DNA of 44,524 bases from Candidatus Aminicenantota bacterium. GTDB lineage: Bacteria > Acidobacteriota > Aminicenantia > UBA2199. Where the stretch lies: assembly GCA_029938635.1 (NCBI GenBank), contig JAOZUQ010000018.1, forward strand, positions 1-44,524, given 5' to 3'. Below the pieces are notes generated by a model that had not been told where the DNA came from, did no database searches, and worked only from the letters and a program-made list of their open reading frames with translations. Position numbers and translations under genes: made by a program. Shown one piece after another: positions 9,682-39,602 of the stretch (position 1 is its first letter; the number at the start of each line of letters is the position of its first letter).

Positions 9682-9820
9682 ATCGGAGAGGCAGGGATTA
9701 CACCCTCGTTCATCACTCGGGCGCCTTCGGTGTCTTCACTTTGTTCAGCCATGAAGGCTCGCTTGAAGGCTCGCCTTTCGAACCCTAGGCACGGGTTCAA
9801 ATCCCTAACTTAGAAGAAAT
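9682..9820 (-). pseudogene. Decayed tRNA-Ser 3'-end copy and tRNA-like fragments
   Basis: The 18 bases ATCGGAGAGGCAGGGATT at 9682-9699 repeat exactly at 9819-9836, where they are the 3' acceptor and T-stem of the intact tRNA-Ser (minus strand). After the match the left copy has a damaged T-loop (ACACCCTCG instead of CGAACCCTGG). Between the copies are a 10-base direct repeat GAAGGCTCGC (9753-9762 and 9765-9774) and TTCGAACCCTAGGCACGGG plus TTCAAATCCCTAAC at 9777-9811, which also look like T-arm remnants. This is what tandem tRNA duplication with decay, or an old integration at the tRNA 3' end, would leave. Confidence 0.6.
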
Positions 9821-9907
9821 CGGAGAGGCAGGGATTCGAACCCTGGGAACCCGTGAGGGCTCAACGATTTTCGAGACCGTCCCGTTCAACCGCTCCGGCA
9901 CCTCTCC
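9821..9907 (-). tRNA. tRNA-Ser (anticodon CGA)
   Basis: Read on the minus strand, the 87-base sequence has a 7-bp acceptor stem GGAGAGG/CCTCTCC with discriminator G. It has a D-arm beginning TGCCGGAGCGG and an anticodon stem-loop ACGGT-CTCGAAA-ATCGT giving anticodon CGA, which reads the UCG serine codon. A long variable arm (TGAGCCCTCACGG region) marks class II tRNAs, and the T-arm is CAGGGTTCGAATCCCTG. CCA is not encoded. A TTGAAA-17-TATAAT promoter lies just upstream. Confidence 0.96.
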
Positions 9908-9928
9908 ATTCTGAAAATAATATGGATA

Positions 9929-9957: not shown

Positions 9958-10075
9958 TTGCTTTCAATATCAATAAACAAATATCATTCATTTCAGTATG
10001 AGTAGCTTTATCCGTGATTACTTTTGACTATCGCAAAAATGTTTATCATTTTTCGCTGGGCTAAAATCCTCAGTT

Positions 10076-10309
10076 CGATATTGGCGAGACTTCGGATTTG
10101 GCCCCGCAAAAGCAAAGCACGGAAGCGCCACTTATCTTGGGTATTAATATAACAGTTTTTACCTGTAGGGAGTTTCAGGCGTAGCCATCTATCTGCATTC
10201 GCGGGCCACCTCAGGGGTGACTCGGTAATATCGATCACCCCGGGGACAGGCAGCGTTAAGCGGATGATAACATCCGTAGCGGAGCAATGTAGATGATGGC
10301 GAAAGCCGG
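10076..10309 (+). repeat. Structured dispersed repeat, copy 1
   Basis: The segment 10161-10309 is about 80 percent identical by eye to the reverse complement of 39211-39360. Both copies contain GGCGTAGCCATCTATCTGC, a perfect hairpin CGGATG-ATAA-CATCCG (10261-10276) and a GGGGTGA...TCACCCC-type stem (10214-10240 in this copy). CGATATTGGCGAG at 10076-10088 pairs with CTCGGTAATATCG at 10220-10232 with one mismatch and one wobble, suggesting a larger fold. Short open frames crossing it (for example 10008-10238) look like by-products of the repeat. It could be a structured RNA or a mobile repeat; no transposase is present. Together with the tRNA and its remnants it fills the gap between tadA and rph. 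Confidence 0.65.
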
Positions 10310-10319
10310 AAGTGAAGAA

Positions 10320-11030
10320 TTATAAGTATTTATTAAGGATATTTATTATTTCATTGTTCTTTTCAATTCCGAGGTCTATTGCTTTAAAGAAAAGATCTTT
10401 TGGAATTGAACTCTCTTCAGCAAAACCTGTAACCTCAATGATATCTCCATCCTCATTGGAGACAATATTAATATCGGCATCAATATTGGAATCTTCCTCA
10501 AAATCTATATCAGCAAGAATTTCCCCGTCTTTAATTCCAATTGAGACAGCAGCTACAGGCTTGAATTCAGGGACTTCAAACAGCTTGTTCTCAAATACAA
10601 GATGTTTAAGCAGTTTCTTAAGTGCTATTACTCCACTATTAATTGATGCACACCTGGTTCCGCCATCAGCCTGGATAACATCCATATCAAGGAAGATACT
10701 GAAATCTTTGATCTTCTTAAGGTCAAACATATTTCTAAGGGAACGTCCGACAAATCTCTGGATTTCAATATTCCGTTTATCCATACGTCCGCCTCTTTCC
10801 CTCAGGAATCTTTGTTTGCCTGTAGAGCCGGGGAGCATTGCATATTCTGCACTAATCCACCCCTTTTTTTCACTTTTAGCGAAGAAAGGGACTTTTTCAT
10901 TAAACATTGCAGTACAGATTATCCTTGTGTTCCCCTGTTTGTATAGGAGTGATGCAGGCTGGTTTGTTATATAGTCCTCTTCTATCTGTATTTCTCTTAA
11001 CTCATTATTGCCTCTATCATTTGTTCTCAT
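10320..11030 (-). CDS. rph: Ribonuclease PH
   Basis: Phosphate-dependent 3'-5' exoribonuclease trimming tRNA 3' ends, usually a hexamer; 236 residues, normal length. Diagnostic blocks are intact: MLPGSTGKQRFLRERGG, MDKRNIEIQRFVGRSLR and DMDVIQADGGTRCASI. The ATG at 11030 has an AGAGGAAAT Shine-Dalgarno and overlaps the end of the upstream acyltransferase gene by 14 bases, so it is the last gene of the kdtA-lpxK-lpxL-rph operon. The structured repeat lies directly after its stop. Confidence 0.96.
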   Translation of the reverse strand: MRTNDRGNNELREIQIEEDYITNQPASLLYKQGNTRIICTAMFNEKVPFFAKSEKKGWISAEYAMLPGSTGKQRFLRERGGRMDKRNIEIQRFVGRSLRNMFDLKKIKDFSIFLDMDVIQADGGTRCASINSGVIALKKLLKHLVFENKLFEVPEFKPVAAVSIGIKDGEILADIDFEEDSNIDADINIVSNEDGDIIEVTGFAEESSIPKDLFFKAIDLGIEKNNEIINILNKYL

Positions 11031-37632: not shown

Positions 37633-39144
37633 TCAGATAATAAGACTGGTACCGTCCATTTCAGTAGGCTTCTCTATGCCGATAATTTTCAGGATTGTGG
37701 GTGCTATATCACTTAGTTTGCCCCCTGATCTCAGTTCTGAATATTCTATTCCCATCAGGGTTAACGGGACGGAGTTCGTAGTATGTGAGGTCATTGGTGA
37801 CCCGTCTTTGAGTTTTGTCTCTTCTGCATTTCCATGATCTGCAGTCAGGATCACAATACCGTTCTTCTCAAGGATTGCTTTAGAAACTTTTTCTGTACAG
37901 AGATCAACCGTTTCTACAGCTATTACTATTTTATCAAAAACTCCTGTATGCCCCACCATATCGCAATTTGCATAATTGACAATTATAAGGTCATATTTGT
38001 CCGACTTGATCTCATTGATCAGTTTTTCAGTTATTTCGAGTGCGGACATCTCAGGTTTTTTATCATATGTGGCAACTCGCGGGCTGTTTATCAGTATCCG
38101 CTCTTCTCCCGGGAACGGGTCATTTTTAAGTGCATTAAAAAAAAATGTTACATGGGCAAATTTTTCTGTTTCGGAAATTCGTAATTGTTTAAGTCCGTTC
38201 ACTGATATAATTTCACCAAGAATATTTTTGTATGTCAGTTCGGGAAAAATCTCTTTAAAGTTTCCGTTATCGTAATAATGGGTCATTGTAATGAAATCCA
38301 GATTATGACGGATAGTATCGAATTCTGAAAATTCTTTCTCAACTATTGCTTTGGTTATCTGCCGGGTCCGGTCAAATCTGAAGTTAAAAAATATAAAAGT
38401 ATCATTCTCGCTGATACCGCCATAATCTATCACACATGGATCTATAAATTCATCTGTTATGCCTTCATCATAGCTGCTCTTTACAGCCTCTTCCCAGCTT
38501 CCGGATTTCCGTCCTTCTCCTTTCATTACTGCCCGGTATCCTTTTTCTGTCCTCTCCCATCTTTTGTCCCTGTCCATCATGTAGTATCTTCCTGTTACAG
38601 AAACTATCTTTCCTGTCCCGATCCTGTTTATCCCTTCCTGAAGAAATTGCAGGTGGTTCAGAGCTGATTTCGGAGGAGTATCCCTGCCGTCCGTTATTGC
38701 ATGAATGAGAACTTTTGACGCTCCTTCATCTTTCGCAATTTTCAGTATCTCAAGGCAGTGCCGGGTTACAGCATGAACACCCTCTTCCTGGATAAGGCCC
38801 ATCAGGTGGATAGCACTACCTCTTTTAACAGCAGATTTTATAGAATTTCTGATCGTCTGATCCTTGAAAAACTCACCATTCTTAACAGCATTGTCTATCC
38901 TGGTGAGGCTTTGGTAAACAATTCTCCCGGAGCCGATATTCAGGTGCCCGACCTCACTATTCCCCTGATAACCATCCGGCAACCCTACATCAAGTCCCGA
39001 TGTGTTGATCAATGTTGTCGGGAATTCCTTCTCTATTTTATCTGTGAAAGGTGTTTTTGCTTTAAAAATCGCATTCGAATCAGTTTCTGCACCTTTTCCC
39101 CATCCATCTCTTATTATCAAACAAATTGGCTTTTTCAATTTCAT
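37633..39144 (-). CDS. gpmI: 2,3-bisphosphoglycerate-independent phosphoglycerate mutase
   Basis: 503 residues of the alkaline-phosphatase superfamily, converting 3- to 2-phosphoglycerate in glycolysis. LIIRDGWG starts the metal site, GLPDGYQGNSEVGHLNIGSGR holds the nucleophilic Ser, and GRYYMMDRDKRWERT and LTADHGNAE complete the active site. These are GpmI motifs; DeoB, a related superfamily member, lacks this pattern. The second structured-repeat copy lies upstream in the same orientation. Confidence 0.96.
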   Translation of the reverse strand: MKLKKPICLIIRDGWGKGAETDSNAIFKAKTPFTDKIEKEFPTTLINTSGLDVGLPDGYQGNSEVGHLNIGSGRIVYQSLTRIDNAVKNGEFFKDQTIRNSIKSAVKRGSAIHLMGLIQEEGVHAVTRHCLEILKIAKDEGASKVLIHAITDGRDTPPKSALNHLQFLQEGINRIGTGKIVSVTGRYYMMDRDKRWERTEKGYRAVMKGEGRKSGSWEEAVKSSYDEGITDEFIDPCVIDYGGISENDTFIFFNFRFDRTRQITKAIVEKEFSEFDTIRHNLDFITMTHYYDNGNFKEIFPELTYKNILGEIISVNGLKQLRISETEKFAHVTFFFNALKNDPFPGEERILINSPRVATYDKKPEMSALEITEKLINEIKSDKYDLIIVNYANCDMVGHTGVFDKIVIAVETVDLCTEKVSKAILEKNGIVILTADHGNAEETKLKDGSPMTSHTTNSVPLTLMGIEYSELRSGGKLSDIAPTILKIIGIEKPTEMDGTSLII

Positions 39145-39210
39145 ATATCCTTATATTCTAAACCTGAATTAATTATAACATCATTCCTCTGATTTAAAAG
39201 AGTACTAAGC

Positions 39211-39360
39211 TTAGGCTATCGCCATCATCTGCTTCGCTCCCGCTCCGGATGTTATCATCCGTCTCCGCTGCCCGGCCTCGGGGTTCACGATATTGGCGAG
39301 TCACCCCTCCAGGCCCGCGAGAGCAGATAGATGGCTACGCCTGATACTTTCCCTACAAGT
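39211..39360 (-). repeat. Structured dispersed repeat, copy 2
   Basis: Reverse complement of copy 1 (10161-10309), about 80 percent identical by eye. It carries the same CGGATG...CATCCG hairpin (39247-39262) and the same GGCGTAGCCATCTATCTGC block. The GGGGTGA stem retains a shorter GGGGT/ACCCC pairing. The 39361-39560 stretch beyond it shares only scattered words (CGCCACTT). Short frames crossing it (39285-39539 and 39293-39493) are not convincing genes. The gap 39145-39644 contains nothing else except the GTCCCC half-site at 39582. Confidence 0.65.
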
Positions 39361-39581
39361 AAAATATCATTCTTTTTGTGAGGGAACGAAACAGAGTGGA
39401 TGGGAACCGGTTTTACCGAAGTGGCGATGTTCCGAAGGAAAAAAGCTTCTGTCTGAGTATGCTTCTTTAGAAGCATGCGAGTTGGCTTTTTAATGCCGCT
39501 GAATAATTCCCGGTCAGATGCGTCGTGGTAAACGAACAAATGAATGATATTTGAAAATTCTCAATGTCAAAAGAAAGCCTG

Positions 39582-39602
39582 AAAAAGTGCCTGTCCCCTT
39601 TT
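39582..39602. repeat. GTCCCC-type dispersed repeat, single half-site
   Basis: AAAAAGTGCCTGTCCCC followed by TTTTA, lying just upstream of the MBL-fold gene, within an open stretch that could be misread as coding. Confidence 0.6.

Follow-up and report, generated by a model that had tools for sequence, protein, structure and literature searches.

Two copies of a composite repeat in the window

The window, which is the whole 44,524-nucleotide stretch of DNA that was analysed, carries two copies of a structured repeat in opposite orientation. Copy 1 lies between the genes for tRNA-Ser and RNase PH (rph) and copy 2 lies upstream of gpmI; Pfam and ARAGORN annotation bears out rph and gpmI as the neighbours proposed in the initial annotation (Table 1). 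A likely tRNA-Ser promoter, with its -35 and -10 elements at 9957-9929, and a -10-like box of gpmI at 39166-39177 place copy 1 and copy 2, respectively, upstream of the likely promoter of the next gene, where an insertion would be tolerated.

The similarity of 10161-10309 to 39360-39211, put at roughly 80 percent in the initial annotation, was recovered in a whole-genome search as an inverted match with 81% identity over about 150 bp (E = 2.8e-32). The hairpin described as invariant, CGGATGATAACATCCG, was located in both copies, at 10261-10276 on the plus strand and at 39246-39261 on the minus strand; a double change in this hairpin, CGTATG/CATACG, occurs in two further copies of the unit. The GGGGTGA stem, whose pairing had been called partly retained, is indeed intact in copy 1 and partly re-paired in copy 2 (GGGGTGA...TGAACCCC). 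The span 10076-10309, on the other hand, cuts through a second unit. In copy 1, two divergent members of one family, A and B, are joined in inverted orientation as a dimer, and copy 2 consists of a unit B adjoining a third palindromic module, C, which, judged by fold energies on both strands, folds better on the strand opposite to B.

Table 1. Positions of the repeat units, their motifs and the neighbouring genes in the window
Feature	Position	Strand	Remarks
tRNA-Ser	9820-9908	-	Pfam/ARAGORN annotation of neighbours
Motif E, left terminal repeat	9978..9993	+	CAAATATCATTCATTT; frames many composites of the window's genus
Unit A of copy 1, three-way-junction unit	10001..10134	- (sense)	R2 144 bits, R3 117 bits, full length
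Apical core motif CTCGCCAATATCG, hairpin P2 of unit A	10076..10088	-	conserved in A, B and g8/g9 units
Unit B of copy 1 (element of the initial annotation)	10175..10309	+ (sense)	R1 140.6 bits
Apical core motif CTCGGTAATATCG, hairpin P2 of unit B, copy 1	10221..10233	+	
Hairpin P3 CGGATGATAACATCCG of unit B, copy 1	10261..10276	+	
RNase PH	10320-11030	-	Pfam/ARAGORN annotation of neighbours
gpmI (iPGM)	37633-39144	-	Pfam/ARAGORN annotation of neighbours
Unit B of copy 2, upstream of gpmI	39212..39344	- (sense)	R1 156 bits, full length; 81% identical to copy 1
Hairpin P3 of copy 2	39246..39261	-	
Inner E motif, terminal repeat between C and B	39362..39371	-	AATGATATTT on minus strand
Module C of copy 2, palindromic partner of B	39374..39537	-	89-91% identical to C consensus
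Outer E motif of C-B composite	39538..39553	-	CAAATATCATTCATTT on minus strand
GGGGACAGGCAC half-palindrome, separate repeat system neighbouring copy 2	39578..39598	-	same site in G002 and G001

The kinship of A and B was established with two covariance models: R1 rests on 14 B copies, and R2 on 14 A copies taken on the opposite strand. R1 recovers A copies at full length (E 2e-9 to 2e-3), among them unit A of copy 1 (E 2e-3), and R2 likewise recovers B copies at full length (E 1e-7 to 7e-4). Since the separately built models find each other's copies, the two units of copy 1 are homologous and form an inverted dimer. This also accounts for the pairing of CGATATTGGCGAG (10076-10088) with a downstream segment, from which a larger folded unit had been deduced. 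The complementarity to CTCGGTAATATCG is real (11 of 13 positions), with the partner one base away from the position first given, at 10221-10233, but it arises because A and B are inverted and each carries the same apical hairpin, CTCGNNAATATCG. A single larger fold joining the two segments was rejected on these grounds.

Modules, distribution and mobility

The genome to which the window belongs is a Candidatus Aminicenantes MAG of 3.05 Mb in 137 contigs, and it holds about 28 near-full-length copies of the unit of about 134 nt. Individual units measure 125-135 nt and composites 200-450 bp. The three modules, namely B, A directly to its left in copy 1 and C beside B in copy 2, occur as A alone, as B alone and as A-B, C-B and C-A composites, which may also be nested; in the composites read, the partners are inverted and diverged from each other. 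Motif E (CAAATATCATTC) has 28 sites in this genome, against one for a reversed control pattern. All 40 copies examined lie outside open reading frames of at least 120 aa and are thus intergenic, and their orientation relative to the neighbouring genes is near random. In a reading by eye, without statistics, of composites L001-L004, L006, L010, L013, L017, L018, L022, L048, L077 and L080, paired units appeared always to be divergent, with their 5' ends facing, and no tandem or convergent pair was noticed. Module C comes with an extra segment of about 75-100 nt that holds hairpins (GACCTGACAAAGTCAGG and others) in L023, L014 and L004, and without it in other C copies.

Beyond this genome, R2 gave 26 matches in G015, together with copies in G019 and G003, and further searches added G005, G009, G008 and a single copy in G129, a member of a different family. 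Matches were thus found in 10 of 142 genomes of the class, with at most about 30 copies per genome, and they span six genera of the window's own family and one of another family, seven in all. An exact B pattern searched in 84,980 species genomes matched five times, twice in the Aminicenantes MAG RS_8_64 and once each in three unrelated genera, the latter being about the number expected by chance. A search of Rfam (4227 models), which the initial annotation had proposed, matched no family to the units at gathering or permissive thresholds. Viral contigs, phages and plasmids yielded no copies, and no published description of Aminicenantes repeats was found in the open-licence literature.

Orthologous sites were located by flank queries, which covered the first 13 of 16 prepared sites. 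Copy 1 is absent from the orthologous tRNA-Ser/rph site of the congener G001, and one further copy (C60_6k) is absent in both congeners. Other orthologous sites are reduced to remnants, and the gpmI site in G002 keeps the outer arm of B with its interior replaced by a GGGGACGG palindrome. One intergenic spot can hold different palindrome families in different congeners (C98 and C132_24k in G001; C17 and win2 in G002; L078/L028). Units of type B were also seen in the loop of GGGGACGGTTC palindromes, as if these palindromes were insertion targets or tolerated hot spots.

Signs of transposition come from the relatives G015 and G019, in which the unit sits within a 204-bp element whose copies are 96-100% identical, have constant ends and carry terminal inverted repeats (CCWWAATYCACC...) at both ends. 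An exact 4-bp target duplication was read at 7 of 17 independent sites, and three more sites match at three of four bases. Variants with the same ends include longer forms of 258-264 bp, deleted forms of 67 bp and re-cargoed forms of 188 bp with the target duplication GAGC. In the 258-264-bp variant of G015 (L210-L213, L217), the 3' side of P2 is swapped for a hairpin segment, CAATATAGGGAAGATGCAGTGCATC..., with the ends unchanged; L210 has a TTAT target duplication. Target duplications, which the initial annotation had proposed to look for at the copy edges, can thus be read at part of the sites in these relatives; they are unreadable for the window copies and their genus, where nesting blurs the boundaries.

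The terminal repeats themselves are lineage-specific, being CAAATATCATTC in the window's genus and CCWWAATYCACC in others, so that any mobilising enzyme common to the whole family is hypothetical. In the window's own genome, pairs of E motifs bound only part of the composites, and terminal inverted repeats are often missing in its genus. Neither a transposase-bearing copy nor a matching transposase was found in the incomplete assemblies, which break at the repeats, and searches with long E-E pairs or terminal-repeat pairs found no autonomous copy. The G000 contigs C12, C56, C60, C63, C89, C132 and C137 start or end inside or beside copies of A, B or C, and the assembly gaps could therefore hide an autonomous copy.

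A three-way-junction fold on one strand

Copies folded one by one give the same shape as the consensus, a three-way junction with a closing stem (P0/P1) and two hairpins (P2 and P3), and unit B of copy 1 has an RNA fold z of -7.3. The apical motif of P2 is CTCGNNAATATCG in most lineages of the window's genus and in g8/g9; units of g2, g4 and g7 and the copy in G129 are without its AATATC part. The loop of P3 is TGANNACA or CGANAACG. These loops, CTCGNNAATATCG in P2 of A, B and g8/g9 and TGANNACA/CGANAACG in P3, are kept while the stems around them change.

In a model-fitted alignment of 19 sequences, which is biased toward its own structure, 93.0% of the cells form pairs, compared with 70.6% after shuffling and 37-53% with the partners slid; the covariation score is 0.527 versus 0.176, and double changes occur in 27 of 32 pairs. 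An unguided MAFFT alignment still has double changes in 16 of 21 pairs. The initial annotation had made its proposal depend on further copies and on covariation in the stems: the copies are many and the covariation is clear.

The fold is also strand-specific. The sense orientation was assigned from homology rather than from fold energy. On the sense strand the fold is the better one in 14 of 14 B copies, 12 of 13 A copies and 16 of 17 G003 copies; copies of one genome share ancestry and are not independent. Among lineage representatives, the sense fold is the better one in 17 of 18 with RNA parameters and in all 18 with DNA parameters. Cells that depart from Watson-Crick pairing are mostly G-U and not A-C (10 columns versus 1, 9 versus 2 and 16 versus 5), although G-U was allowed when the consensus structures were predicted, which bears on these counts. 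Such a strand bias points to a folded transcript or a single DNA strand; it would not be expected from double-stranded palindromes or from arm-to-arm correction, both of which treat the strands alike. This suggests that one strand has been kept able to fold and may work as RNA rather than as idle repeat DNA.

Interpretation and comparison with known systems

It is very unlikely that the units are idle palindromes in double-stranded DNA, with no selection on a fold and with arms that stay complementary only through template switching or arm-to-arm correction. Species and copies do differ by swapped or deleted palindrome interiors (win2 in G002; L214, L221, L227), as in hairpin-prone DNA. Arm correction is strand-symmetric, however, whereas the exceptions to pairing are G-U rather than A-C and nearly every lineage has its better fold on the sense strand; unpaired loops, moreover, are retained amid changing stems. 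One-strand covariation and conserved loops are what a functional RNA shows, and a host regulatory RNA or RNA element (a small RNA, leader or terminator), duplicated and only secondarily dispersed, would display both. We nevertheless regard this explanation as very unlikely: the copies are tied to no particular genes or single orientation, they are missing at orthologous sites of congeners, those in the window lie upstream of the likely tRNA-Ser and gpmI promoters and not inside these transcripts, and up to about 30 copies with terminal repeats and target duplications point to an element.

A REP or REPIN origin, in which a short palindrome is moved by a RAYT (a Y1 tyrosine transposase) with a single strand folding during transposition, would account for the strand-specific fold and for the inverted unit pairs, which resemble those of REPINs. 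Y1 transposases are present in all eight genomes searched, four of them in the window's own genome, and unit B begins with GGCGTAGCC. However, the palindrome on the flanks of two own-genome Y1 genes is another one, GGGGACGG...CCGTCCCC, and the 12 Y1 regions examined, from four genomes, contain no A, B, C or G015-type unit. The chemistry of Y1 transposition does not fit 4-bp target duplications such as those in G015/G019, the GTAG head occurs only in B and some A units and is absent in other lineages, and the fold is a three-way junction rather than a simple REP hairpin, all of which makes this origin highly improbable. The second, unrelated palindrome system, GGGGACGG/GGGGACAG, was seen in the window at 39578-39598 and at two other loci (L299, G000:C56; L301, G000:C12). 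The GGGGACGG/GGGGACAG palindromes flanking the two RAYT-like genes are probably the true REPIN of the window's genus.

The initial annotation's choice between a non-coding RNA family, a REP-like element and a degenerate mobile element resolves into parts. Mobility is upheld by the dispersed copies, the empty orthologous sites and, in a relative, terminal repeats and 4-bp target duplications; the core has an RNA-like, strand-specific and covarying structure; a strictly REP-like nature falls away, this genome's RAYT-associated repeats being a different palindrome. No indication emerged of the recombination between the inverted copies that the initial annotation had considered possible. The repeats are best read as a new family of MITE/BOX-like elements whose core is RNA-like. 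We consider it likely that they form a small, non-autonomous, intergenic mobile family of Aminicenantes that depends on a putative DDE transposase acting in trans and whose sense strand acts in folded form. The unit occurs singly or in inverted, divergent pairs, such as A-B in copy 1 and C-B in copy 2, and the terminal repeats at its flanks differ from lineage to lineage. The enzyme that moves the element would be a transposase of DDE type acting in trans, and the sense strand may act as a folded transcript that helps the element to spread or persist, with folded single-stranded DNA in this role as the less likely alternative.

The three-way-junction core is older than the terminal repeats. 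More tentatively, the junction may be a functional RNA of the mobile element, needed for its spread or persistence, for example through binding by the mobilising protein, and would then represent a new RNA family that has switched terminal-repeat frames between genera. Interspersed repeats of small size usually pass for inert hairpins that transposons have left behind. In the present family, compensatory changes have kept the fold of one strand across genera, with one instance in a second family, while the terminal repeats changed, as would be expected of a functional RNA carried by mobile DNA. The work also yields a covariance model of this new structured family, which belongs to a widespread uncultured phylum, and an explanation for one class of assembly breaks in the genomes concerned.

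Prokaryotic MITEs are gene-free, intergenic elements of 50-500 bp with terminal inverted repeats that are moved in trans, have target duplications in young copies and form stable secondary structures (PMC10969869). The units and composites described here are likewise short, gene-free, intergenic and multi-copy, with terminal inverted repeats in G015/G019. Unlike MITEs, they have a core fold that compensatory change on one strand has preserved from genus to genus and that has outlasted the terminal repeats; no parent IS was identified, and in the window's genus terminal repeats are often missing and target duplications are unread. The BOX elements of Streptococcus pneumoniae consist of separable modules in variable combinations, are intergenic, would be folded if transcribed, and vary in boundaries and interiors between strains (PMC3049150). 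By architecture alone, the present family resembles them in its separable modules, variable make-up and intergenic location, but its modules are inverted homologous units rather than boxA-boxB(n)-boxC tandem arrays, and it belongs to a different phylum.

REP, REPIN and BIME sequences share with the family a palindromic, intergenic and non-autonomous nature and the occurrence of inverted pairs (PMC2817692, PMC3116915). The units described here, in contrast, are not beside RAYT genes, are without a conserved GT(A/G)G head, form a three-way junction of about 134 nt instead of a simple hairpin and, in a relative, have a 4-bp target duplication. Finally, the HEARO or omega RNA of IscB and the reRNA of TnpB are comparable as structured RNA-like segments on a mobile element; the present units differ from them in matching no Rfam family, in having no nuclease gene seen alongside and in having target duplications.
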